Of a stretch of DNA of 64,000 nucleotides, positions 21,856-43,277 are shown piece by piece. Below the pieces are notes generated by a model. The model ran no database searches. It saw only the letters and a list, made by a program, of their open reading frames with translations, and was not told the DNA's origin. The first letter of the stretch is position 1. Every line of letters begins with the position of its first letter. A program made the translations under genes and the position numbers. Source of the stretch: Nevskia sp. (GTDB lineage: Bacteria; Pseudomonadota; Gammaproteobacteria; Nevskiales; Nevskiaceae); NCBI GenBank assembly GCA_031291075.1, contig JARLJS010000060.1, positions 1 through 64,000 on the forward strand, given 5' to 3'.

Positions 21856-22132
21856 ATAAATCAACTACTTACGTCGGTTTTTTCAAGAATCGGGCTTCTC
21901 ATATTCCGGGCGTTTTCTTATATTCGCCAGGGAATTGGGCTGCCCCCTGCGGCCGGCATGTGCCGTGCTTGATCGGGCGTCTGGCGATCGTTGTTACCCT
22001 GGTCCCTCATGGGTTACATCCGGTTGTGTGCATGCACCCCGGTGGATGCAGTCCAATTTAAGCCCCAGCGCCGACATTACCTTTACCAAGCGCACGGACT
22101 GGCCTGACCGGCGACTGCAGCGGCGCCGATCC
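21856..22132. other. Spacer without recognised genes
   Basis: About 280 bp between tRNA-Thr and the tacA operator. I see no open frame with coding bias, no RNA fold I recognise and no clear terminator directly after the tRNA. G+C is lower than in the surrounding genes. Confidence 0.5.
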
Positions 22133-22151
22133 TGCCGTACAATGTACGGCA
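22133..22151 (+). promoter_or_regulatory. Palindromic operator/promoter of the tacA-tacT pair
   Basis: TGCCGTAC-AAT-GTACGGCA is a perfect 8-bp inverted repeat. It contains the likely -10 (TACAAT, 22138-22143), so a bound antitoxin would cover the promoter. This fits the conditional autoregulation known for DUF1778-GNAT modules. Confidence 0.65.
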
Positions 22152-22174
22152 CAAACGCCGCTGGAGAAATCGCC

Positions 22175-22450
22175 ATGGCCGCCACTGAGCGCCTGGAAAT
22201 GCGCCTGCCTTCTGAAGAGAAGGGCCTGCTGACCCGCGCCGCGCAGATCGAAGGGGTCAAGCTAAGCCAGTTTGTGCTGGCGCCCGCGCTCAAGCGCGCT
22301 CGCAAGGTGATCGCCGATGCCGAGCAGGTCACGACTACCGCCCAGGGCTACAAGGATGTCCTCGATGCGCTCGCCAAGCCGCCGAAGCCAACCAAGGCTT
22401 TGATCACAGCGATGCTCGACTACGAGGCTGCCGGCATTCAGTGGCGCTGA
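22175..22450 (+). CDS. DUF1778 (TacA-type) antitoxin
   Basis: A 91-residue ribbon-helix-helix antitoxin. The N terminus ATERLEMRLPSEEKGLLTRAAQIEGVKLSQFVL is the DUF1778 RHH DNA-binding fold, and the C-terminal tail (about 60-91) is the part that normally wraps the acetyltransferase toxin. It should neutralise the downstream GNAT toxin and repress its own promoter through the palindrome at 22133-22151. ATG at 22175 has a GGAG site upstream. The gene overlaps the toxin start by 10 bp, which ensures coupled synthesis. Confidence 0.88.
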   Translation: MAATERLEMRLPSEEKGLLTRAAQIEGVKLSQFVLAPALKRARKVIADAEQVTTTAQGYKDVLDALAKPPKPTKALITAMLDYEAAGIQWR

Positions 22451-22959
22451 TCGTCGGCAGTCTCGACAAGGCTGTCCATGACCAGACAGCCTTCGACTGC
22501 GGTGAACCGCCGCTCAATGATTTCTTCAAGACCAAGGCCGCCAAGCATCAGGCGCAGCGCGTCTCGCGCACCTTTGTCCTGACCCACTCGGACGCGCCTG
22601 GGCGCGTCCTCGGCTATTACAGCTTGAGCAATAGCCAGATCGCAGGCGAGCAGCTGAGCGAGGACGAAGCCAAGACCCTGCCGCGGCATGCGGTACCGGC
22701 GGTCATGCTGGCACGGCTGGCGGTGGATCGCAGCCAGCAGGGCAAGCGTTATGGGCAGTGGCTGCTGATGGACGCGATCAAGCGCTGTGCCCTGGTTGGA
22801 CAACAGAGCGGTGTGTACGCACTGCTGGTCGATGCCAAGAACGACACAGCCAAACGCTTCTACGAGCGTTTCGGTTTTACCGCTATCGTCGGGCATCCGA
22901 TGACGCTGTACCTGCCGCTGGAGACCGGTCTCAAAGCATTGCAAATGGCGCAGGGTTGA
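22441..22959 (+). CDS. GNAT (TacT-type) acetyltransferase toxin
   Basis: A 172-residue GNAT enzyme of the type II toxin-antitoxin class whose members acetylate the amino group of charged tRNAs and stop translation. The N terminus has the family pattern FDCGEPPLNDFFKTKAAKHQ. The acetyl-CoA site lies around LARLAVDRSQQGKRYGQWLL (Q/R-x-x-G-x-x), and the C-terminal NDTAKRFYERFGF contains the conserved Tyr. GTG at 22441 overlaps the antitoxin. The specific tRNA target cannot be read from the sequence. Confidence 0.88.
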   Translation: MALIVGSLDKAVHDQTAFDCGEPPLNDFFKTKAAKHQAQRVSRTFVLTHSDAPGRVLGYYSLSNSQIAGEQLSEDEAKTLPRHAVPAVMLARLAVDRSQQGKRYGQWLLMDAIKRCALVGQQSGVYALLVDAKNDTAKRFYERFGFTAIVGHPMTLYLPLETGLKALQMAQG

Positions 22960-23024
22960 TACCGATACCGGGGACACGCATTGGACCGGCTTCAAACCAT
23001 CGATATCGGACCCGGCGGAATCTC

Positions 23025-24089
23025 CTAACCCCCGTCCAGGCTCTTGAGATCCCCCTCCACCATCGCATACGCGTCACTGCCCGGCGCCAGGCTGGCCTCC
23101 AGCTTTGTCCAGATCTCCCGGGCGGTGGATCTGTCGCCCTTGACGCGTGCAGCCAGTCCGGTCAGGTAGCGGATTTCCGGCGCGTCCGGATATTGGGACC
23201 CGAGCGACTTGAGGCTGTCCACGGCCGCCTGCGGCAAGGTCGTCCGTTTCTTCGACTCCGTATCCAGCAACAGGGCCCGCAGGTAGTTGCAGCGTGCCGC
23301 CATGTCGTCCGGCTTGAGCTTTAGCGCATGCTCGTACGCGGCGAGCGAGCCCGCCGTATCGTTCAGCACCCTGAGGGAGCGGCCGAGCATCATCCAGCCG
23401 TCGAAGTCCTCGGGCTGCTTCGCCAGCCGATCCTTCAGACGCTGGACCATGCCGTCAGGCCCCATCGCCGGGGCCGGGGGCGCTGCCGCGGAAACACTGC
23501 CGGACCTGAGCTTCGCCGCGCGCTCGTAGGCCGCCTTGGAACCTTCGGGGTCGTTCATCACCTGCAGCGAGCGGCCCAGCATCATCCAGCCGTCGTAGTC
23601 GTCAGGCTGGCGCGCCAGGCGATCCTTCAAGTGCTGGACCATCACGGCCGGGTCCATGGGCATGCTCTCGGCCGACGATCCTGGCGTCTGCGATCCGGCC
23701 CGCGGCTTCAGCTGTGCCGCGCGCGCATACGCCGCCTTGGAGCCTTCGGGGTCGTTCATCACCTCCAGCGAACGACCCAGCATCATCCAGCCATCGTAGT
23801 CGTCAGGCTGACGCGCCAGGCGATCCTTGAGGTGCTGCACCATCTCCGCGGGATCGGAGCCCATGGGAGCGGACTCGGCGCCCGCATCGCCCGGCGGCGC
23901 CGTGTTGGGAGAATGCGAATCGGTCCAGGGCACGAATGCCGCGCCGCCCTCGCCGGCCAGCAGCCGGGGACTAAGCAGGGCGGCACAGCAGGACAACGCA
24001 GCGACCGACCACCAAGCCGGACGCGTGCGGCCGCCGCACCGCGTCCGGACCATCACCTTGCCGGCGACCACCCGCGTGGCGCGCCGCAT
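23025..24089 (-). CDS. TPR protein with three near-identical modules, end of the mtr-like operon
   Basis: A 354-residue exported or membrane-anchored protein with a basic N terminus and a hydrophobic helix at about 25-45. Three modules begin MVQ-L-KDRLA-QP and contain DGWMMLGRS, the motif seen in the CcmH/CcmI and NrfG family of cytochrome c maturation TPR proteins; a fourth TPR-like part closes the chain. Modules 1 and 2 are nearly identical also in DNA (repeat period about 201 bp), a recent duplication. ATG overlaps the stop of the barrel gene (TGATG), so it is coupled to it. A role in assembling the multiheme cytochromes is likely (inference). Confidence 0.75.
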   Translation of the reverse strand: MRRATRVVAGKVMVRTRCGGRTRPAWWSVAALSCCAALLSPRLLAGEGGAAFVPWTDSHSPNTAPPGDAGAESAPMGSDPAEMVQHLKDRLARQPDDYDGWMMLGRSLEVMNDPEGSKAAYARAAQLKPRAGSQTPGSSAESMPMDPAVMVQHLKDRLARQPDDYDGWMMLGRSLQVMNDPEGSKAAYERAAKLRSGSVSAAAPPAPAMGPDGMVQRLKDRLAKQPEDFDGWMMLGRSLRVLNDTAGSLAAYEHALKLKPDDMAARCNYLRALLLDTESKKRTTLPQAAVDSLKSLGSQYPDAPEIRYLTGLAARVKGDRSTAREIWTKLEASLAPGSDAYAMVEGDLKSLDGG

Positions 24090-26392
24090 CAGAACTTGTA
24101 GATGAAGGCGGCGTTGACGGTCGACACGTTATAGCGTGCCGGCAGGTCGCCCGTGATCACCTGTCCGACGGTCATACCGGGCAGCGTCCAGTCGGTCATG
24201 TCCAGGCTGTCGAAGCGATAGCCGAGGTACACCGACATCCGCTTCGAGTAGTCGTAGACCGAGTAGACCTTGAACTGGTTGTCCGACGAATGCGCCCCCA
24301 GCAGCGGGTCGCCCGTGTTGGTCGCAGCGGCGGGGAAGGACTGTGTGAACGCCTCGTTGCCGTAGGAGTACGTGTAGTCGGCGCCCAGCTTCACCTTGGT
24401 GTTCAGCCTCCACGTGGTGCCGACGCCGGCGGTGTGGATGTCGTAGGTGTTGCTGTCGTAGTAGTACTGCGGGACGGCCGCCGTGGTGTTCGAGGCCAGC
24501 GCGTTGATCGAGCGGTAGGTACGCAGGAACGAGTAGAACAGATGGACCTCGCGGTCCTCGTCGATGCGGTACGCGAGGTCCGGCCCCGCCTTGGCGCTAT
24601 AGTCCCTGCGGGTGCCCACCGGAGCCGAGCCGGCCAGGCTGTTTGTCAGGTTCGGGTCGTGGTAGTGGTTGTAGGTGTACTTGCCGAACAGGCTGAGCGA
24701 CAGCTTCTGGTGCAGCGTCGTCGCCAGGTGCAGGGTGGCGGAGTCCTCGGTCCGTGCCGCCTCGTAGAACGGCACTTCCTGGCAGCCCAGCAGGTTGGTG
24801 GCGGCCGAGTAGCAGTCGGACACGATCTGCAGGGTCCACAGGCTGAAGTCCGGGGCCGACGCGGTGCGGTTGGCATGCAGCAGCGCCAGCGAGCCGGTGG
24901 TGTTCGGCAGGAACGTCGTGTTGACCTTGAACGTCTCCTCGTTGTCCTTGGCATGCCGGGTGATGGCGTTGTCCCGGCGGGTGTCCTTGTAGGTATAGCC
25001 GAGCTGCAAGCGCGTCGAAGGCAGCAGGTGATATCCCGCGGTGAGTGCCATCGCCTGCTTGGCCCACGATTCCGGCACCGCCTGTCGGAACTTGAGCGAA
25101 GCCGCCGGCGTGCTGGCCGAGGCGGTATCGGTCGGGTCGCCGTAGATGAACATCGGCTGCGTCTGCGGATCGCGCAGGTCGGTGGTGTAGCTGGCGCGGA
25201 TGTCCAGCTTCGGCAACGGCCGCGTGGTCACCGCCAGGCTGCCGAAGTAGGTCTGGACGATGCCGTCGAGCGATCCGGGATTGGAGGCCAGCAGCCCCTG
25301 CGTGGTCTTGTTGACGGTGGTGACGTAGGGATCGTTGGTGGCGTTGACGAAGCCGTCGTCCTGCAACTGCAGGCTATACACCATGGTGGCGCTGACGCGG
25401 GTGGTCGGCGTCAGGTTGTAACCCGCCTCGCCGGTGATCGTATGCGCCTGGTTGCTGGGCGGCAGGCTGTAGACGCCCGTCTGCGGGTACTGCGTGCCGG
25501 AGACGATCTTGAAGTTCCAGGGCTGGAAGCCGAAGCCGCCGCCGTTGTTGTCCGAGAAATTGGAGAACTCGTAGGCCAGCTTCGCCTGCAGGCGTTCGGT
25601 GTTGTACGCCGCCGCCACCGTGAGGGTGTCGGTGTCGTAGTTGATCGGCATCGGGAAGCTGATGAACCCGGTGTTGCTGCCCGCCGTGGTCATCGCCTGC
25701 TCCAGCGTTCCCTCCTTGTGCTCGTGCACCACATCGCTCGACAGGTCGATATGACCGATGTGGTAGGTCCACCCCAGCATGCCCTTGTCCCGGCGCGTAC
25801 CGACGTTGGTGGTCAGCTCGGTGCCGTTGCAGTTGGTGGTGGTGCCGCAGACCACGGTCAGGCCATTGGTGGTGGTCGGCGTCAGCTTGGCCTTGAAGCC
25901 GGGTGAAAGGTTCCCGTTGTTGTCGAGGATCGAGGTGAAGTGATCGCTCCCCCAATACGTCATCGCGTCGTAACCGGCGCTGATCCCCCAGTGTCCCTGC
26001 TCGCCCACACGCAGGTTCAGCGAGGCCTCAGGTGCCAGCCGGCCGGGCTGGAAGTCGACATTGTCGCCGGTGAACACGAAGTAGTGGGTGGTGCCGCTAT
26101 CCCAGGCGTCGCGGTCCTGGTAGGTCCAGCCGGCGGTGGCCCCGCCCCCCTCCTTGAGACCGTTGTACTTGCCGAACGTGGCCCAGTTGTTGGCGCTGCC
26201 GAACACCCCCAGGCCTCCGAGCCGCACCTGGTTCACCGGGGCCGGCTGGGCCGGGGCCGCGGCGGCTTCCGGCGCCGCGGGCGCCGAGACGTCGAAGCCG
26301 CTGTCGTCCTTGGACTGTGCCACCGCCGCGAACGGCAGGATGCAGAATGCACTCGCCAGGACGGTAACCGACTGTTTCGTTTTCTTGCTCAT
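24089..26392 (-). CDS. MtrB/PioB-family outer-membrane beta-barrel
   Basis: A 767-residue outer-membrane porin of the decaheme-associated MtrB/PioB family, the sheath through which a decaheme cytochrome passes electrons across the outer membrane. Signal peptide at 1-25 (ending AVAQ), an Ala/Pro-rich linker, then many amphipathic strands with alternating Tyr/Thr. The C terminus is AAFIYKF, with the terminal Phe needed for Bam insertion. There is no CxxC near the mature N terminus, unlike Shewanella MtrB. It lies 14 bp after the decaheme gene, as in mtrAB, mtoAB and pioAB. Confidence 0.87.
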   Translation of the reverse strand: MSKKTKQSVTVLASAFCILPFAAVAQSKDDSGFDVSAPAAPEAAAAPAQPAPVNQVRLGGLGVFGSANNWATFGKYNGLKEGGGATAGWTYQDRDAWDSGTTHYFVFTGDNVDFQPGRLAPEASLNLRVGEQGHWGISAGYDAMTYWGSDHFTSILDNNGNLSPGFKAKLTPTTTNGLTVVCGTTTNCNGTELTTNVGTRRDKGMLGWTYHIGHIDLSSDVVHEHKEGTLEQAMTTAGSNTGFISFPMPINYDTDTLTVAAAYNTERLQAKLAYEFSNFSDNNGGGFGFQPWNFKIVSGTQYPQTGVYSLPPSNQAHTITGEAGYNLTPTTRVSATMVYSLQLQDDGFVNATNDPYVTTVNKTTQGLLASNPGSLDGIVQTYFGSLAVTTRPLPKLDIRASYTTDLRDPQTQPMFIYGDPTDTASASTPAASLKFRQAVPESWAKQAMALTAGYHLLPSTRLQLGYTYKDTRRDNAITRHAKDNEETFKVNTTFLPNTTGSLALLHANRTASAPDFSLWTLQIVSDCYSAATNLLGCQEVPFYEAARTEDSATLHLATTLHQKLSLSLFGKYTYNHYHDPNLTNSLAGSAPVGTRRDYSAKAGPDLAYRIDEDREVHLFYSFLRTYRSINALASNTTAAVPQYYYDSNTYDIHTAGVGTTWRLNTKVKLGADYTYSYGNEAFTQSFPAAATNTGDPLLGAHSSDNQFKVYSVYDYSKRMSVYLGYRFDSLDMTDWTLPGMTVGQVITGDLPARYNVSTVNAAFIYKF

Positions 26393-26406
26393 GTCACCAC
26401 CCCCGA

Positions 26407-27411
26407 TCAACGGAAGAAGGTAGAACCGCTGGGGCTGTTGGAGCCGTGAATCTGCGAATGGCAGTTCAGGCAGCTACGGTCGCCCGAGAGGTAGAAGTTG
26501 CCGCTGTGCGCCGCCACGTCGCTGTTCTTGTAGCCGTAACCGCCCATGTCGTTGGTGGCGGCATGGCAATCCAGGCACAGGAATGGCACCTTCTCCTTCA
26601 ACAGGCGCGCGTTCTGCGAGCCGTGCGGGTTGTGGCAGTTGGTGCAGTCCTCGCGCACCGGCTGGTGCTCCCACAGCATCGGACCGCGCTTGTCGGCATG
26701 GCAGGTGTAGCAGGTGTCGGTGACGCGGACCTTCTTCAGCGAGTCGGGCCCGGCCGAGCCGTGCGGATTGTGGCAATCCGAGCAGGCCACCTTGCCTTCG
26801 CGGATCGGGTGGTGCGAGAACTGCAGGGTCAGCGCCTGTTGCTCGGCATGGCAGGTGAAGCACTTGTCCGGCTGCGTCTGCTTGACCAGCACCGGATCCT
26901 TCTGCACGTGGATGGTGTGGCAGCTGTTGCAGGCGATGTTGTTTGATTCGTGCTGGCTGCCCTGCCAGTTCATGCGCAGGCCGTTCTGGTGACAGGCCAG
27001 GCACTTGGCATTGCGGTCCGCCACCGGCGAGGCGAACTCGCCCTTGAACACCACCGCCGGCGACGGCCGCCGCTGGCCTTCGGCCGGATGTGCCTCGTAG
27101 TGGTCGCGGCTGACGCCGTGGCAGGACTCGCAGGCATGCTTGCCGAACGGCGTGCGTGGATCGGCCTTCATCGCATGCGGCGTCGCCAGGATATCGGTGA
27201 CCGGCGCCTTGTCGTGGCAGCGCATGCAGGTCTGCTCGCCGCGCGCGGCAAAGTCCGACGCGCCCTCGGCCGCCTCCCCTGGCCCGCCGGCGCTGGCGAC
27301 CTTGCCGTCCGCCGCAGTGCTGCTGTCGGCCCAGGCCGCGTTGCAGCCCACCGACGCTCCCAACAGGAGCGCCAGGCCGCCGAATGCCGCGATCGTTCGT
27401 TTCAGTCCCAT
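26407..27411 (-). CDS. Decaheme c-type cytochrome, MtrA/DmsE/PioA family
   Basis: A 334-residue periplasmic cytochrome with exactly ten CxxCH heme sites (CMRCH, CESCH, CLACH, CNSCH, CFTCH, CSDCH, CYTCH, CTNCH, CLDCH, CLNCH), the number and size of MtrA/DmsE. Signal peptide at about 1-28. Such proteins form the heme wire inside the MtrB-type barrel encoded next. ATG at 27411 has AGGAG about 9 bp upstream; an upstream extension is not supported. Electrons should come from or go to the NapC-type protein of the same operon. Confidence 0.93.
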   Translation of the reverse strand: MGLKRTIAAFGGLALLLGASVGCNAAWADSSTAADGKVASAGGPGEAAEGASDFAARGEQTCMRCHDKAPVTDILATPHAMKADPRTPFGKHACESCHGVSRDHYEAHPAEGQRRPSPAVVFKGEFASPVADRNAKCLACHQNGLRMNWQGSQHESNNIACNSCHTIHVQKDPVLVKQTQPDKCFTCHAEQQALTLQFSHHPIREGKVACSDCHNPHGSAGPDSLKKVRVTDTCYTCHADKRGPMLWEHQPVREDCTNCHNPHGSQNARLLKEKVPFLCLDCHAATNDMGGYGYKNSDVAAHSGNFYLSGDRSCLNCHSQIHGSNSPSGSTFFR

Positions 27412-27480
27412 GGCATGACTCTCCTCGTCAGGGCCCCCGCCCCGTTGCCACAGCGGAGGCCGGTTAATCCCCAATCAATC

Positions 27481-28431
27481 TCACTTGCCGGCCGCTACGA
27501 AGTCGGCGGCGCCGGAATCCAGCACCAGCGTCCGCTCGAACGACACGTAGTGGAAACGCCCCTCGGTGTGCCCCGCATGGACGGCGAAGCCCACCGTATA
27601 GGTCTTGCCGGGCACGATGTCCTTGTAGACACCGCCGGCGTGCAGCGGCCTAGCGATCGTCACCGACCAGTGGCCCTTGTCGCCGGTTGCTTCGGCCGTG
27701 ACCTTGTTGTCGGCGATCGGCTCGCGCTTGTCGAGGATCGTGCCGCTCTCGGCCGCAGCCGGCTTGCCCGGATTGAGGCGGGCCTGGTCATACTCGAGGT
27801 AGTAGCCGGCCGCCTTGAGCTTGGCCAGCTCGTCGGCGGACTTGGCGTCGCCGCCACCCTGGCGCGACATCTTTTCGCGGCTCTTCATCAGGTACATGGT
27901 GCGGCTGGCACCGCCGGCGCCCGGCATGTTGGTCAGGTCCTCGTGGCAGCCGACCCAGCAGGTGGTGCGGTTGGCTTCCGGCACCCCGCCGTCGTTCAGC
28001 ATCATGGTGACCTTGGTCTCGAACTTCTTGTCCTGCCCGGCATCCGGTTGGGTGCCGGTATCGAAGTCGAGATGCACGTAGAGGTTGCTGGCGTCATGCG
28101 CGAACTTCACGGTGGCCGTCATCGAACCGGGCTTGCCGGCGATCGGCGACGCCTCGTTCTTCTTGCCGGACACCAGGTTCTTGCCCATGTCCGGCTCGTC
28201 GCCGGTATGGCACTTGCGGCAATCCTTGCCCGACTTGAAGTTGGGCGCGCCGCTGTGGTCGGCAGGGGTCAGCACCCACTCCCACGACGACTGACCGGGA
28301 TAGAACAGGTTGATGTCCTGGCCCTTCACGCCGGACCAGTCGATGCCGGCGGCCTGCGCCGGCTGGACCGCCGTGGCGCCAGCAAGACAAAGTCCCGCGG
28401 CCGCCAAACGCACTTTCAGCCTGTGGTTCAT
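27481..28431 (-). CDS. Periplasmic heme-binding protein (ethylbenzene-dehydrogenase-like domain)
   Basis: A 316-residue exported protein (signal peptide to about residue 28, ending QPAQAAG). It carries one classical heme c site CRKCH at 71-75 and one unusual CWVGCH at 158-163 (three residues between the Cys). The middle and C-terminal parts (VKFAHDASNLYVHLDFDT, GHWSVTIARPL) resemble the heme-binding fold of ethylbenzene dehydrogenase gamma and cytochrome c-552-like proteins. It sits between the NapC-like and decaheme genes, so it may shuttle electrons between them or be a terminal enzyme subunit (inference). Moderately sure of the fold, unsure of the job. Confidence 0.7.
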   Translation of the reverse strand: MNHRLKVRLAAAGLCLAGATAVQPAQAAGIDWSGVKGQDINLFYPGQSSWEWVLTPADHSGAPNFKSGKDCRKCHTGDEPDMGKNLVSGKKNEASPIAGKPGSMTATVKFAHDASNLYVHLDFDTGTQPDAGQDKKFETKVTMMLNDGGVPEANRTTCWVGCHEDLTNMPGAGGASRTMYLMKSREKMSRQGGGDAKSADELAKLKAAGYYLEYDQARLNPGKPAAAESGTILDKREPIADNKVTAEATGDKGHWSVTIARPLHAGGVYKDIVPGKTYTVGFAVHAGHTEGRFHYVSFERTLVLDSGAADFVAAGK

Positions 28432-28467
28432 CGCACGAATCTCCAGTTGATGATCGGTTCCCAAGCC

Positions 28468-29100
28468 CTACTTCACGTCGAAGCCGCTATCGGCAGCGGC
28501 GGCCGGCTCTTCCACGTCGAATTTCTTGTGGGTGACGCCCTTGTGGCAGTCCACGCAGTTGGCGTTGGTGGACATCGCCTCGGTGTGCATGCGCTGCGCG
28601 CGTCCGGGCTGCTCGCTCAGCACCATGTTGTTGTAGTAGTGGCAGTGCTTGCACTCGCGGGCGTTGGTGTCGGCGAAGTGCTTCCACACGTCCTTGGCAA
28701 GCTGCGGCCGCAGCGGGTTGAACTTGTCGAGGGTATTGATGCCGGTGAGGTAGTAGAACAGCTCGAAGCCGGCCTTCCATTTCACGCCCACTTCGTGGAT
28801 CCAGCTGTTCTGCGGCACGTGGCAGTCCGGACAGCCGGCGACCACGCCGAATTCGTTCTTGAAGTGCTTGGACTGGGTGTATTCCTCATACACCGTGTCC
28901 TTCATGATGTGGCAGCGGATGCAGAACTCGGTGTGGTTGGTCCACTCGATGGTGCTCATCCAGGCACCGAAGCTGGCCCAGCCGACGAACATGGCGGCGA
29001 CCATGCAGGTCAGGAGCACGCGGTGAGCCCGTACCCAGGCCCAGAGACCCTTCTTTTCGCTTCCGGCCCCTTTTGAGGGGTCCTGCGCTGCGTTGGCCAT
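28468..29100 (-). CDS. NapC/NirT/CymA-type tetraheme cytochrome
   Basis: A 210-residue quinol-linked cytochrome anchored in the inner membrane. One N-terminal helix (about 27-50) is followed by four CxxCH sites (CIRCH at 60, CPDCH at 90, CKHCH, CVDCH). Family members take electrons from the quinol pool and pass them to periplasmic carriers, or the reverse during Fe(II) oxidation. First gene of the five-gene electron-transfer operon. The tail SGFDVK is echoed by SGFDVSA in the barrel N terminus, perhaps by chance. Confidence 0.93.
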   Translation of the reverse strand: MANAAQDPSKGAGSEKKGLWAWVRAHRVLLTCMVAAMFVGWASFGAWMSTIEWTNHTEFCIRCHIMKDTVYEEYTQSKHFKNEFGVVAGCPDCHVPQNSWIHEVGVKWKAGFELFYYLTGINTLDKFNPLRPQLAKDVWKHFADTNARECKHCHYYNNMVLSEQPGRAQRMHTEAMSTNANCVDCHKGVTHKKFDVEEPAAAADSGFDVK

Positions 29101-29458
29101 CGTTCCGCCCCCTTTACTCGTACTACGTCCTGCGTACGTTCAGCAAACAACCACTTGCTTCGAGAGGCGCACCGCGCGCCAAGGTTAACCGATTTCCCCT
29201 CCGAAATGTTCTGGAATCAGACCGGCCATCGCTCCGCTCCCCCACAGGATCGATGCCACCCACGGCTTCAAGCGCGCCGCCGCACCCGGGCCCGATGCCC
29301 AAAGGATGCGGAAACAACCAAAGCTTGAATTTCGATTGACTCGCATGTGCTTGTTCTTCTTCTTCGTCGCTCGCGTTCGCCTTTCGATACTACTCGCGGA
29401 GTACAGCCCTTCCTTTACATTCGCTGCAGGAAAGTACCCGCATCAAGACACAGGTGCC

Positions 29459-29472
29459 TTGATCTAGATCAA
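29459..29472 (-). promoter_or_regulatory. Perfect FNR/ANR box upstream of the mtr-like operon
   Basis: TTGATCTAGATCAA equals the FNR consensus TTGAT-N4-ATCAA at all ten fixed bases. On the minus strand a possible -10 (TACTTT, 29436-29431) lies 22 bp beyond the box, the class II activator spacing, which would start transcription near 29424 and give a leader of about 320 nt before the tetraheme gene. The remaining part of the 29101-29635 spacer has lower G+C and no gene I can support. Confidence 0.7.
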
Positions 29473-29635
29473 TCGGGCGTCATTTTTTATTCGAAAAGCT
29501 GACGGCGGGATGAAACACCGCGCACACGGGGCCGCCGGGGCCTGCGCCCCGGCATCGTCGATGGATCATGCGCGGGCGGCCGATCACCCCCGATCGGTCC
29601 GCCCGCACCGGCCCCGAGGGGACCGGCCGCGCGGT

Positions 29636-30442
29636 TCAGCCGCCGCGCGCGAATTCCGGATACAGCGTCATGCCGCCGTCGACGAAGATGGTCTGGCCAC
29701 TGACGTAGTCGGAGTCGTCCGAGGCCAGCCACACCGTGGCCTTGCCGATGTCCTCCGGCAGGCCGATGCGGCCGTAGGGGATCAGGGTGAGCAGGGAGCT
29801 GAGGGCTTCCGGGGTCTCCCAGGCGGAGCGGTTGATCGGCGTCTGGATCGCACCGGGGCCGATGGAGTTAATGCGGATCTTCTGCGGCGCCAGCTCCTGC
29901 GCCAGCGACTGCATGAACAGCTTCACGCCGCCCTTGGACGAGGCGTAGTTGACGTGGCCGGCCCAGGGGATGGTCTCGTGCACCGAGGACATGCAGATGA
30001 TCTTGCCCATGGCGCGCGAGAGCTCCGGCTGCATGCCGCGGCGTACGAACTCCTTCACCGCCAGGCTGGAGCACAGGAACATGCCGGTGAGATTGATGCC
30101 GATGACCTTGTTCCACTGCTCCAGCGTCATGTCGACGAAGGCCGCGTCCTGCTGCAGGCCGGCGTTGTTGACCAGGATGTGGATGGTGCCCCAGGCCGAG
30201 ATCATCTGCTTGAACATGGCGGCGACCTCGTCCTCCTTGGACACGTCGGCCTTGATCGCCAGCGCCTGGCGGCCGAGGGCGGTGATCTCCTTGACCACCT
30301 TCTCCGCCCCCGCCGCGCTCGACGCGTAGTTGATCACCACGTCCGCGCCGGCCTGCGCCAGCGACAGCGCCACGCCGGCGCCGATACCCGAGCTCGCGCC
30401 GGTGACCAGTGCCTTCTGCCCCTTCAATGGTTGGTACGACAT
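29636..30442 (-). CDS. SDR oxidoreductase, glucose 1-dehydrogenase-like
   Basis: A 268-residue classical short-chain dehydrogenase. Cofactor motif TGASSGIG at 14-21, NNAG at 92-95, catalytic Ser near 152, Tyr166 and Lys170 (YASSK). The overall sequence is closest to bacterial glucose 1-dehydrogenases (ends SDYVSGQTIFVDGGMTLYPEF). The phosphate-discriminating residue after the glycine loop is not clear, so NAD versus NADP is open. It is transcribed after the GH63 glucosidase (82-bp gap), so oxidation of released glucose is a plausible job. Confidence 0.85.
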   Translation of the reverse strand: MSYQPLKGQKALVTGASSGIGAGVALSLAQAGADVVINYASSAAGAEKVVKEITALGRQALAIKADVSKEDEVAAMFKQMISAWGTIHILVNNAGLQQDAAFVDMTLEQWNKVIGINLTGMFLCSSLAVKEFVRRGMQPELSRAMGKIICMSSVHETIPWAGHVNYASSKGGVKLFMQSLAQELAPQKIRINSIGPGAIQTPINRSAWETPEALSSLLTLIPYGRIGLPEDIGKATVWLASDDSDYVSGQTIFVDGGMTLYPEFARGG

Positions 30443-30524
30443 TGCTCTGCTCTCCTGGTTTGCCGGCCGCAGCGGTGCGTCGGCCAATGCTGGTGGAACT
30501 GACAAAGGTGCCGCGGGACCCGCC

Positions 30525-33194
<2,670 letters not shown>

Positions 33195-33246
33195 GTGTCC
33201 CCCCCTCGTCGATCCGTAGTGTCCAGGCCTGGCGGCCCGGTGAGCT

Positions 33247-34374
33247 TCAAGCTTTGCCGCCCGCCTCTCCCTGCGCCTGCGCCAGCCGGCGGCCGGTCTG
33301 GTCGATGCGCTGGCACAGCTGCCGCAGCAGGCGCACCGTCTCGGCCGGATGCTCGGCGATGACGTGCTCGAAATTCTTCAGGGTGACCTCGCGCAGCTCG
33401 GAGTCCTGCGTCGCCACCACCGTGGCCGAGCGCGGCTGGTTCAGCAGCAGCGACATCTCGCCCACCCAGTCACCCGGTCCGAGCACGGCCAGCACCTGCT
33501 GGCTGCCGTCGGGGCCGCGCTTGCGCACCTCCAGCGCGCCGCGCTCCAGCACATAGGCCCGGTCGCCGGCGCCGCCTTCCTCCAGCACCACCGAGCCGGC
33601 CTTGGCGTGCGAATGCACGCAGTCGGTGAAAATGCACTTGTAGCGTTCGGTGTGGTAAAGCTTGGCGCAGCCGGCGCGCTGCTGGCCGGTCACCCAGCCC
33701 GCCAGCTTGACCGCGATCAGCGCCCCCGCCATCGGCCCCACCAGGTACAGCCACTGGTGCTGGAACAGCTGGGTCAGCAGCGCCGGGGCGAAGCTGCGGG
33801 CCGGGTTCAGGCTGGTGCCGGAAACCGGGGCTTCCACGAACACCAGGAAGGCCACCAGCGCGCCGGCCAGGTAAGGCGTCCTCCTGGCGAAGCGCTGGTT
33901 GCTGACGCAGTACAAGATAAGGAACACCAGCATGAAGGTGATCAGCGTTTCGGCGGCCAGCGCCACCGCCACCGAGTAGCCGTCGCCGGGCAGGGTGAGG
34001 CCGAGCTGGATGCTGCGCGCCGCTGTGCCGCCCACCGTGGCCACGATGTACACGCCCAGCACCGCTCCCAGCACCTGCGCCACGACGTACAGCACGGCGT
34101 CCGCGGTGGGCACCTGCCCCTTCCACCAGAAGGCGAAGGTCACCGCCGGGTTGAGGTGACCGCCGCTGCGCTGGCCGAGCGGCGACAGCACCACCAGGGT
34201 GCCGCCGCCGGCGAACATCATGCCGGTGAGCAGGCGCCGCAGGTTGTCGGACGGGATCAGCCCGCGCATGGGCGTACCCTGCCCCCACATCAGCGCCACG
34301 GCGCCGATGCCGATGGCCATCATGATGGCAGTGCCGACGAACTCGGCGAAGTATTCGGGCAGATGGGCTTTCAT
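33247..34374 (-). CDS. Aquaporin fused to a cyclic-nucleotide-binding domain
   Basis: A 375-residue fusion. Residues 1-235 are a MIP channel with both NPA motifs (HLNPAV at 73-78, SLNPAR at 188-193), the conserved Arg after the second, and six membrane helices. Residues about 245-365 are a Crp-type cyclic-nucleotide-binding domain; the phosphate-binding cassette keeps GE (305-306) and PRSAT (314-318), so nucleotide binding is plausible. No helix-turn-helix follows. The frame is continuous across the join. ATG at 34374 begins the first helix. Lead gene of a probable operon with the glucosidase and the SDR. Confidence 0.85.
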
Positions 34375-34690
34375 CGGGCTGCTATCCGGCACACTCCCAG
34401 TCGAACCCGGCCCAGGCGGGGTCCTAAATAATGAGGAAGCAATATTCAATCCGCGCCGCTGCGCGAAGCCCCCGGGCCATCGTCTTACTCTACTCCGGAT
34501 CGGCGGGGCCTGCCCCCTGTGCAGGCCCCGCCTCCGGGTCCCCCTCGGCATCGATACGGCGGCCTTGCAGGCCACCGTACCGCAGCTGCGGCGGCGATGA
34601 TGGGACTGTGTCCGGCGGCCCGACCCTGCCGCAAGGCCCCGGAGCGGGTCTTTTCTACTGCCCGGTCTATGCGCTAAAATGGTCGTCTTT
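34375..34690. other. Spacer with hairpin, upstream of the aquaporin and tRNA genes
   Basis: No gene is supported. It holds a perfect 11-bp inverted repeat (GCGGGGCCTGC at 34503-34513 and its complement at 34521-34531, 7-nt loop), which forms a strong hairpin without a T tract. At the right end lies the tRNA promoter. Confidence 0.5.
34675..34680 (+). promoter_or_regulatory. Promoter -10 of tRNA-His/tRNA-Lys
   Basis: TAAAAT (five of six to consensus) 10 bp before tRNA-His. The -35 is weak, in the T-rich stretch near 34651-34657. Confidence 0.5.
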
Positions 34691-34768
34691 GGTGGACGTA
34701 GCTCAGTTGGTTAGAGCTCCGGATTGTGATTCCGGAGGTCGTGGGTTCGAGTCCCATCGTCCACCCCA
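34691..34768 (+). tRNA. tRNA-His (anticodon GTG)
   Basis: Acceptor GTGGACG pairs CGTCCAC. An encoded extra G at -1 (34691) faces C73, the hallmark of tRNA-His. Anticodon arm CCGGA-TTGTGAT-TCCGG gives GTG. CCA encoded. It is followed by tRNA-Lys after 11 bp. Confidence 0.98.
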
Positions 34769-34779
34769 AGTTCGCGCTT

Positions 34780-34854
34780 GGGCTGTTAGCTCAATGGTAG
34801 AGCAGCTGACTCTTAATCAGTAGGTTCGGGGTTCGAGTCCCTGACAGCCCACCA
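34780..34854 (+). tRNA. tRNA-Lys (anticodon CTT), island insertion target
   Basis: A 75-nt cloverleaf with acceptor GGGCTGT pairing ACAGCCC, discriminator A and CCA. Anticodon arm CTGA-CTCTTAA-TCAG gives CTT (reads AAG). Its 3' part from the anticodon arm onward is repeated at 43226-43277, which marks it as the attachment site of the island that follows. The gene remains intact because the island brought an identical 3' end. Confidence 0.98.
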
Positions 34855-41790: not shown

Positions 41791-43047
41791 TCAGTGTGCC
41801 GGCTTGTGCGGGAAAGCTACCACCTTGCCCTGCTGCTTCCCGGTCAGCAGCTCGGACAGCGCGGCGCCCCACCGCTCCAACGCCTGCCGCTTCTCGCGGT
41901 CGTACTCATGCAGGTCGTAAGTCGCGCCGATACTGCGGTCCTTGTGGTTCAGCACCTTGTCTTGCACGAACCGCGTAACGCCCAGCCGCCCCATGTTCGT
42001 GGCGCAGCTGCGGCGCAGATCGTGCGGCGTCCACCGATCTTCGACGCCGCGTTGATTCAGCCAGTCGCGCACGGCATGGGATAGCGCCACGACGGTCAGC
42101 GACTTGGCAGCGTCGCGGGCGCCGGGGAATACCCAGCGCTCGGACAGCGCCAGGGTCTTGAGTTCGGCCAGCACGCCTTGCGCGAGCGCCGGCAGGTAGA
42201 CACGATGCGCCAGCTTGTTCTTCGACTTGGCGGCCGGGATCGTCCACCACTGCCCTTCGATTTCCGGCCATTCCAGGCCGGCCACCTCGCCCGGCCGCTG
42301 CCCGGTGACAAGAATCAGCTTGAGCGCCAGCGCCGTATGCCGGGCCATCGGCGCGGTATCCAGGCCGCACCATGCCTCCCGGATTTCCTCGTCGCTCAGC
42401 ACGCGCTCGCGCGGTGCTTCCACTGCACGCCGTTCCACCAGCGCAGCCGGGTTCGCCTGGTTGTTCATCAGGTCGCGCGCAATGGCGAAGTTGAACAGCT
42501 TGCGCACCAGCGCCAGCGTGCGGTTCGCCATGACTCCCGCCCCGCGCGACTTGATCCCGTCCAGCAGCCGGTTTACCTCCGCGCGGGTAATGTCCCTCGC
42601 CTTGCGGCTGCCCCAGGCCGGCAGCACGTCGGCGTCAAGGATCCGCTGGTCCTCGCGCCAGGACCGTTTTTTCGCCCGCGCGTGGTGCTCCATGTAGAGC
42701 GCGGCCAGATCGCGCACGGTCGGATGCCGGACCGATTCGGAGTGCGCCCGGATCGCCGTCTCGCGCTTGCGCTGCTTCGTCGCGGCGGGATCGTCACCCT
42801 CGGCCAGCAGCTTCGCCGCCGCCGCGTGCAGCTTGCGCGCGCCGGTCAGATCGAGCCCGGCTTTGGGGTCGTACTCGCCATATACGAGGCGCCGGCGGCG
42901 ACCGTGGAAGTCGTAGACGAACTCGAACGACTTGCGCCCGCTCAGGCGCACCCGCACCCCGAAGCCGGGGGCGGAAGGATCGCGGAGGAAGTAGTCGGCG
43001 TCCCTCGGTTGCAGGGCGCGGATCGTCAGATCGGTCAGTTTCTTCAT
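41791..43047 (-). CDS. Tyrosine integrase of the island (DUF4102/P4 type)
   Basis: A 418-residue site-specific recombinase. The N-terminal DUF4102 arm-binding domain is followed by a core-binding domain and the catalytic domain with Arg in TGQRPGEVAGLEW, HDLRRS, the second His in LNHKD and the Tyr in TYDLHEYDREKRQALERW. Recombines the 52-bp tRNA-Lys repeats. It lies 180 bp from attR, with arm-type repeats in between, the classical order for such islands. Confidence 0.95.
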   Translation of the reverse strand: MKKLTDLTIRALQPRDADYFLRDPSAPGFGVRVRLSGRKSFEFVYDFHGRRRRLVYGEYDPKAGLDLTGARKLHAAAAKLLAEGDDPAATKQRKRETAIRAHSESVRHPTVRDLAALYMEHHARAKKRSWREDQRILDADVLPAWGSRKARDITRAEVNRLLDGIKSRGAGVMANRTLALVRKLFNFAIARDLMNNQANPAALVERRAVEAPRERVLSDEEIREAWCGLDTAPMARHTALALKLILVTGQRPGEVAGLEWPEIEGQWWTIPAAKSKNKLAHRVYLPALAQGVLAELKTLALSERWVFPGARDAAKSLTVVALSHAVRDWLNQRGVEDRWTPHDLRRSCATNMGRLGVTRFVQDKVLNHKDRSIGATYDLHEYDREKRQALERWGAALSELLTGKQQGKVVAFPHKPAH

Positions 43048-43225: not shown

Positions 43226-43277
43226 CTGACTCTTAATCAGTAGGTTCTGGGTTCGAGTCCCTGACAGCCCACCAATC
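43226..43277 (+). repeat. Right attachment repeat (attR)
   Basis: A copy of the tRNA-Lys 3' half (one mismatch to attL over 52 bp), left at the distal end of the island. It has no 5' half, so no functional tRNA is made here. Confidence 0.92.

Follow-up and report, generated by a model that had tools for sequence, protein, structure and literature searches.

An MtrAB-type operon of Nevskia with a probable diheme EB_dh-fold cytochrome between its NapC and MtrA genes, a candidate for anaerobic electron export

The window analyzed here is a 64-kb stretch of DNA from a Nevskia genome, and five genes on its minus strand, within 23025-29100, follow one another in the order napC - EB_dh - mtrA - mtrB - TPR. 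The first encodes a tetraheme NapC/NirT-like protein (28468..29100; PF03264, 1.5e-49; 4 CXXCH), which shows a single hydrophobic segment at the N terminus as judged by eye, and which is probably a quinol dehydrogenase. It is followed by the gene of a probable diheme c-type cytochrome of the EB_dh fold (27481..28431; PF09459, 1.7e-29; CXXCH and CX3CH), referred to below as EBdh, by an mtrA/dmsE-like gene of a decaheme cytochrome (26407..27411; TIGR03508, 3.1e-91, over cut-off; 10 CXXCH), by an mtrB/pioB-like gene of an outer-membrane barrel (24089..26392; PF11854, 3e-87; TIGR03509, 8e-81, over cut-off), and by the gene of a CcmI-like TPR protein (23025..24089; PF23914 TPR_CcmH_CycH, 1.4e-39). 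The likely starts are at 29100 for NapC, 28431 for EBdh, 27411 for MtrA, 26392 for MtrB and 24089 for the TPR protein. The spacing between the five genes is small, and the mtrB stop and the TPR start share TGATG, an overlap that suggests translational coupling of the two. The Pfam and NCBIfam profiles confirm what had been predicted from the letters, namely a five-gene set on one strand with short gaps or overlaps. No outer-surface MtrC/OmcA cytochrome is present in the operon, in line with the same prediction, and a search of the genome itself, which is 96.86% complete, gives no match to PF22113. The operon thereby shows the trait of Mto and Pio, i.e., MtrA and MtrB homologues without MtrC; the small periplasmic carriers MtoD and PioC are not in it, and its sole further cytochrome is the EB_dh-fold protein. 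In addition, DmsA/DmsB molybdoenzyme genes were not found in the operon or among the scanned neighbour genes. With an MtrAB conduit and a NapC-type quinone partner, the locus looks like the extracellular-electron-transfer operon that was predicted, and it is a real and probably working one of the MtrAB kind.

The EB_dh-fold protein had been described as carrying one or two hemes, and the comparison with its relatives argues for two. All 81 EBdh proteins compared, the window's included, contain a CXXCH and likewise a CX3CH of the form C[W/F]xxCH, with W in 71 and F in 10. Among 32 aligned sequences, C71/C74/H75, C158/C162/H163, H285 and H294 are invariant. Since both motifs are universal in the 81 proteins and the Cys and His residues are invariant in the 32, the protein probably binds two covalent hemes. 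Its N terminus is signal-peptide-like by eye. The AlphaFold model (mean pLDDT 82.5, pTM 0.82) has as its best fold matches in the PDB, by Foldseek, the gamma subunit of ethylbenzene dehydrogenase (2ivf_C, E 3.5e-09) and NxrC (7b04_C, 3.7e-07); a sequence profile search agrees with the fold (2.7e-08 and 1.1e-06, respectively), and a match to TIGR03477 is below cut-off. However, unlike these two proteins, EBdh stands in an operon without a molybdenum enzyme and carries two c-type motifs; the gamma subunit of ethylbenzene dehydrogenase has a non-covalent heme b according to a survey (PMC10654088), which names ethylbenzene dehydrogenase for the archaeal FoxC and once in a reference. The candidate role of gamma subunit of a molybdenum dehydrogenase was rejected, no gene for such an enzyme being found among the scanned neighbours.

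We then present an account of how often EBdh is found beside NapC and MtrA. A scan of GTDB genomes with the EBdh alignment gives 212 relatives, and the best 80 of the 212 were retained for neighbourhood counts. As these loci were picked by EBdh similarity, the counts are biased; several loci stop at contig edges, two of them (L128 and L146) duplicate L034 and L037, and the neighbour labels come from phmmer with only a few query proteins, so that distant NapC or MtrB homologues may be missed. Within this EBdh-selected set of the best 80, 58 loci have MtrA and 54 have NapC at no more than 6 kb from EBdh, while NapC, EBdh and MtrA are directly consecutive in 37, with MtrB next in 32. This recurrence led us to reject a chance insertion of EBdh. 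On the other side, 22 of the best 80, some of them ending at a contig edge, have no MtrA within 6 kb, so that MtrA is not an obligatory companion of EBdh; a PQQ-dehydrogenase-like gene, by a query named by eye, or a diheme cytochrome c is the neighbour in some of these 22. Among 321 genomes sampled evenly over the class, 35 contain EBdh matches and 22 contain MtrA/DmsE matches. EBdh adjoins MtrA in only 3 of these 22 MtrA-bearing genomes (the present one, G096 and G141), and in G152, G213 and G269 both are present on different contigs of draft assemblies. Therefore, the set with EBdh is a recurrent variant and not the rule among MtrA loci, and the co-occurrence that the original prediction proposed to score for the heme gene holds in the EBdh-selected set, with just these three cases in the even one. 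The extra heme protein does lie outside the Mtr, Mto and Pio sets as described; it is not well called inserted, however, since it recurs beside NapC and MtrA in alpha- and gammaproteobacterial loci.

EBdh has other partners as well. Around the EBdh matches of the even class sample, 34 gammaproteobacterial loci were fetched, and in 18 of them NapC and EBdh are one fused protein. All 18 fusions have a NirS-like gene in the same locus by phmmer, a label that may include NirN/NirF-like proteins; a cytochrome d1 domain is confirmed by Pfam in L041, the one fusion locus of the 18 scanned, and also in L049, a locus with NapC and EBdh unfused. A search of plasmids gave five records, and the three opened (Azospirillum WP_059399791.1, Ruegeria and Aliiroseovarius) are NapC-EBdh fusions with the same two domains, 34-41% identical in the EBdh part. 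They sit in loci with cytochrome-d1/nitrite-reductase genes, whereas the pair in the present operon is unfused and goes with an outer-membrane conduit. Among the loci compared, a fusion beside MtrAB is not seen, and the argument from fusions draws on loci other than the MtrAB ones. Nevertheless, the fusion to an inner-membrane-anchored NapC in 18 of 34 loci leads us to place the EB_dh domain in the periplasm, and the position of the fused forms beside a reductase-like gene points to an outward flow from quinol in those loci. It is likely from these sequences that EBdh is a general periplasmic relay from NapC to a next partner, MtrA in the present operon and a reductase in other loci, and that it also serves in nitrite respiration. 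In 3 of the 34 loci (L034, L035 and L036), a separate NapC/EBdh pair precedes a Cyc2-like fused cytochrome-porin with one CXXCH ahead of the porin-like part, and L142 contains an EBdh/Cyc2-like pair truncated by the contig edge. The motif described for Cyc2, an iron oxidase, has AXPXFAR[Q/K][T/Y] ahead of the heme site and PXL behind it (PMC8406198). The four Cyc2-like proteins hold most of it, but the Q/K place is taken by L, S or A, the distance from the motif to the heme site is three residues where five are given, and there are other single departures; of the three scanned, two match Porin_4 of Pfam below cut-off, and NCBIfam gives no match for any of them. We use the label Cyc2-like and not Cyc2.

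The TPR protein, which the original prediction counted as a coupled member of the set, is better described as CcmI-like. It has 354 aa and matches PF23914 with 136 bits against a cut-off of 42, in three stretches; three closely similar units start from residues 83, 150 and 214. By eye it consists of TPR units and one N-terminal hydrophobic stretch and is not a full-length CcmI, the CcmI-like proteins of the compared loci having mostly 420-500 aa. In 7 of the best 80 of 212 loci (L070, L072, L073, L074, L077, L085 and L088, the last with another gene intervening), ccmF and ccmI-like genes lie 3' of mtrB on the same strand. For L073 and L070, Pfam confirms the TPR domain of CcmI as well as CcmF, the latter sharing its frame with a redoxin part, and in L073 it also finds CcmH on the other strand. 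Counted over the best 80, 18 loci have ccmF or ccmI at most 6 kb from EBdh. As the window has a CcmI-type domain at the place where its relatives have ccmF...ccmI, a role in cytochrome maturation is likely, and judging from its domain the protein is most likely a CcmI-like maturation helper, proposed here as an apocytochrome chaperone. A part in electron transfer was rejected, the protein having no heme motif and a CcmI-type domain. The TPR gene as such is not a conserved partner of mtrAB loci: elsewhere in the best 80 of 212, some of which are contig-edge loci, phmmer finds no TPR match (E up to 1e-8) that follows mtrB immediately in the same orientation with no ccmF intervening; at E 1e-5, L109 yields a TPR match of 689 aa, close to an mtrB and encoded on the opposite strand.

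Upstream of napC, an intergenic region of 535 bp separates it from the SDR gene and contains a perfect FNR/ANR-type palindrome, TTGATCTAGATCAA (29459..29472). As an exact match, the pattern TTGATNNNNATCAA is present just once in the 64 kb, at this place, and in none of 100 shuffles; we take TTGAT-N4-ATCAA to be the FNR/ANR consensus. With at most one mismatch allowed, such a site is found in 9 of the 55 regions upstream of MtrA-linked loci, whereas 200 dinucleotide shuffles give 0.98 regions on average and never more than 4. All nine regions are among 19 gamma-like loci, a list set by hand from record titles that includes at least one titled alphaproteobacterial order (L120, Sphingomonadales) and in which L120 and L123 are close kin with one site in common, and none of the 36 regions outside these 19 has such a site. 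A version against the genome background, which ignores base make-up unlike the shuffles, gives 15 upstream sites over 76 loci, a rate 4.5 times as high as in the remaining sequence of these loci. The genome itself has three Crp/FNR-family matches, all below the Fnr equivalog cut-off, and the two proteins read (L215 and L216) have an N-terminal cysteine cluster by eye; a regulator of this family might act on the site. In the napC leader, the one Rfam match has 17.6 bits against a gathering score of 40 and was rejected as an RNA element; sigma-70 promoter or terminator signals are no more frequent than in shuffles.

MtrAB, MtoAB and PioAB look alike, and either direction of electron flow is possible for such a conduit. 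The original prediction left the choice between Fe(II) oxidation and acceptor reduction open, and the FNR-type box, together with the lack of matches to the RuBisCO large chain (PF00016), MtrC/OmcA (PF22113) and cd1 (PF02239) in the 97% complete genome, favours anaerobic export over Fe(II)-fed autotrophy. Uptake, in which Fe(II) or another outside donor would be oxidised and the quinone pool fed in an Mto/Pio-like way, would suit the absence of MtrC, as Mto and Pio are likewise without it, and also the Cyc2-like neighbours in some EBdh loci, given the iron-oxidase role ascribed to Cyc2 in PMC8406198. A further likeness is with Sideroxydans, where a published report (PMC13390432) places the monoheme PmcA between ImoA and MtoA in a line of three steps; that system comprises an inner-membrane tetraheme protein, a small periplasmic cytochrome and MtoA in MtoB, without MtrC, and so parallels the operon here. 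However, PmcA and MtoD are monoheme and the direction proposed is opposite to ours. Against uptake stand the FNR-type site upstream of napC, the missing RuBisCO match and the reductase-like gene beside the fused forms, with the outward flow it implies there, so we regard uptake as rather improbable, albeit the strongest of the alternatives.

For anaerobically induced electron export we thus have a reading that seems moderately probable as a whole, comprising a path from quinol through NapC, EBdh and MtrA/MtrB to a surface acceptor, a CcmI-type helper, and an alphaproteobacterial source with insertion in a tRNA array. To our knowledge, the route across the periplasm from a NapC/CymA-type protein to an MtrA-type conduit has been established for just a small number of model bacteria. 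In the proposed path, NapC would draw electrons from the inner-membrane quinol pool, and the diheme EB_dh-fold protein, soluble in the periplasm, would accept them and hand them to the decaheme MtrA, which inside the MtrB barrel would carry them to the cell surface. Because no MtrC-type surface cytochrome was found, we suppose that a soluble or shuttle-type acceptor (an Fe(III) chelate, a flavin, humic matter or the like) would be reduced directly there. The TPR protein, as a CcmI-type helper, would deliver the many-heme apocytochromes to the heme lyase. The Mtr pathway of Shewanella consists of CymA, FccA/STC and MtrCAB. It agrees with the operon here in a NapC/NirT quinol dehydrogenase and in MtrA within MtrB, but it has MtrC, and FccA or STC takes the place of the EB_dh-fold carrier proposed here.

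The closest case in the literature is the Telmatospirillum MAG SA7853_bin3, for which a 'cytochrome c-552' with two hemes, MtrA and MtrB are reported together (PMC6933298). From the MAG name, the gene order and the heme count we infer that this cytochrome is the EBdh of our locus L075. L075 shares with the operon here the order EBdh-MtrA-MtrB without MtrC; on the other hand it has no NapC match, a seven-heme protein lying upstream, and no TPR match, while the operon here has both. The authors of that work propose the diheme protein as an extracellular substitute of MtrC, and this is the only published reading of an EBdh-type protein that we found; a periplasmic relay differs from it. That EBdh replaces MtrC as an extracellular cytochrome at the outer face of MtrAB would fit the order EBdh-MtrA-MtrB, which mirrors mtrC-mtrA-mtrB, the localisation program that put the Telmatospirillum protein outside the cell (PMC6933298) and the lack of an MtrC match in the Nevskia genome. 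Yet the fusions in 18 of 34 loci locate the domain to the periplasmic face of the inner membrane, and its other neighbours are NirS-like and PQQ-dehydrogenase-like genes. Enzymes of these two kinds are periplasmic. In addition, MtrC-type cytochromes are lipoproteins, whereas a lipobox-like motif precedes the domain in only 8 of 81 EBdh proteins by a crude pattern. Finally, L124 (by Pfam) and L139 (by phmmer) have an MtrC/OmcA-like gene beside MtrAB as well as EBdh, showing that EBdh does not stand there in the stead of MtrC. On this evidence the extracellular reading is unlikely.

With EBdh taken as periplasmic, the domain fusions give a specific candidate for the periplasmic link in mostly uncultured alpha- and gammaproteobacteria, and the published model of goethite reduction in Telmatospirillum would have to be read in another way. 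As a wider and more tentative proposal, possible though a little short of probable, NapC and the diheme EB_dh protein may form a transferable electron-delivery unit that is plugged into cd1-type nitrite reductases, mostly in fused form there, and into Cyc2-like cytochrome-porins and MtrAB, with the Telmatospirillum cytochrome c-552 as the missing periplasmic link. If this is true, extracellular respiration in these bacteria arose or vanished when a single periplasmic relay exchanged its terminal partner for another. In a full-text search of the literature outside subscription, we recognised no description of the NapC-EBdh-MtrA-MtrB set or of the NapC-EBdh fusion; neither 'ethylbenzene' nor 'Telmatospirillum' occurs in the text of an MtrCAB survey (PMC8805035), and a Methylobacter bioanode cluster (PMC13322032) is a different set, with a four-TM monoheme protein instead of NapC.

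As to its origin, the operon lies in a 12.8-kb insertion-like stretch (21856..34691) between tRNA-Thr and tRNA-His, which also holds GNAT, SDR, MGH1-like glycosidase and aquaporin-cNMP genes. Compared with these 12.8 kb, the distance between the two tRNA genes is 90-91 bp in L210 and L211, two of the five congeners fetched; the other three (L212, L213 and L214) have a different tRNA order or no tRNA-Thr there and are therefore neutral on the empty site. The SDR - MGH1-like glycosidase - MIP/cNMP block (29636..34374, minus strand) is 84% identical over 4.7 kb to contig C149 of one congener, G011, without other matching sequence around; as the block is found there in another setting, the insertion looks composite. 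Contamination of the MAG was rejected as the source of the operon, for the left flank matches the genus with best pieces of 73-86%; the right flank has the tRNA pair and, at 72%, a 2.6-kb piece that matches G004. EBdh has no match at E 0.001 in 60 other genomes, 17 of the same genus and 43 of the family or order. MtrA is over the family cut-off in two of these 60, namely G020 (at two sites) and G031, which share a genus other than Nevskia; EBdh is absent from the stretches fetched around it, and one of them (L207) has MtrC/OmcA-like and NapC-like genes, showing that a classical MtrC-bearing set is present in the same family. In the EBdh tree of 81 rows, four of which (L125, L131, L133 and L145) were trimmed to the last 345 residues, a 100/99 split puts the window's EBdh on a side of 48 rows; this side is without any gammaproteobacterial-titled record, and the other contains gammaproteobacterial and some alphaproteobacterial rows. 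Among the fetched loci, MtrB is 46-52% identical to the best eight loci versus 24-25% to three Lysobacterales loci, MtrA 64-77% to the best loci versus 46-53% in four Lysobacterales loci, and the best matches of NapC, at 51% and less, are alphaproteobacterial records. Taken together, the cytochromes and the barrel of the operon come closest to records of that class. The operon was thus apparently acquired from an alphaproteobacterial source, the set having presumably entered the lineage on the insertion in the tRNA array, in the direction from that class to this one; the insertion at the tRNA site looks like a complete electron-export line moved between classes as one piece. The operon as a silent or decaying passenger, which the lack of EBdh in the 60 genomes and the position inside the insertion-like stretch might suggest, is very improbable in view of its five open frames, tight overlaps and spacings, complete motifs and clean FNR-type site upstream. 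None of the nine genes scanned within the 12.8 kb is an integrase; one integrase is located farther right and may belong to a second element.

Among the best 80 of the 212 EBdh relatives from the GTDB scan, a set of loci thus selected by EBdh (the EB_dh-fold probable diheme c-type cytochrome of the operon), 28 have a homologue of a MocR-type regulator within 6 kb of EBdh, mostly immediately upstream, including L073, L074, L077 and L084; the query was the L084 protein, with GntR and aminotransferase domains. This regulator possibly provides lineage-specific control at the loci where an FNR-type site is not found. EBdh is also seen in settings without MtrA: in three loci (L103, L105 and L111) it adjoins a gene judged by eye to be PQQ-dehydrogenase-like, and in four others (L102, L106, L114 and L115), which are records of Magnetospirillum, Paramagnetospirillum, Phaeospirillum and Terasakiella, it is divergent from a cytochrome with two heme motifs. 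In addition, two loci, L147 and L130, each have NapC and MtrA with two EBdh-type genes, the second in L130 being a weak match. In the tree, the EBdh of two records titled Candidatus Marinimicrobia (L110 and L112) is placed on the side that is mostly alphaproteobacterial, corresponding either to misbinned contigs or to transfer. Within the same family as the window, one genome has MtrB-like, MtrC/OmcA-like decaheme and NapC-like genes together (L207, G020:C14), with no EBdh beside them at this locus.

Below we report the other genes around the operon. An MGH1-like glycosidase gene (30525-33194) lies near napC in the window, and its homologue adjoins napC in another locus (L036:6320-9025), which may reflect either chance or shared cargo. 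The insertion-like stretch carrying the operon also includes a gene at 33247-34575, for the most part common to the congener G011, with domain matches to MIP (aquaporin family) and cyclic-nucleotide binding in a single protein; to our knowledge this pairing is unusual. Close to the left boundary of this stretch, still within it, a small gene is followed by an overlapping GNAT acetyltransferase gene (21935-22959), and judged by eye the two resemble a toxin-antitoxin pair. Immediately to the right of the stretch, the region of about 34.8-43.3 kb is probably a second integrated element, since it has a phage-type integrase gene (41791-43047, PF00589) with an adjoining copy of a tRNA-Lys end: the tRNA-Lys is located at 34780-34854, and about 50 bp at 43226-43277, beside the integrase gene, copy its end and match the tRNA-Lys 3' ends from four congeners at 88-96%.
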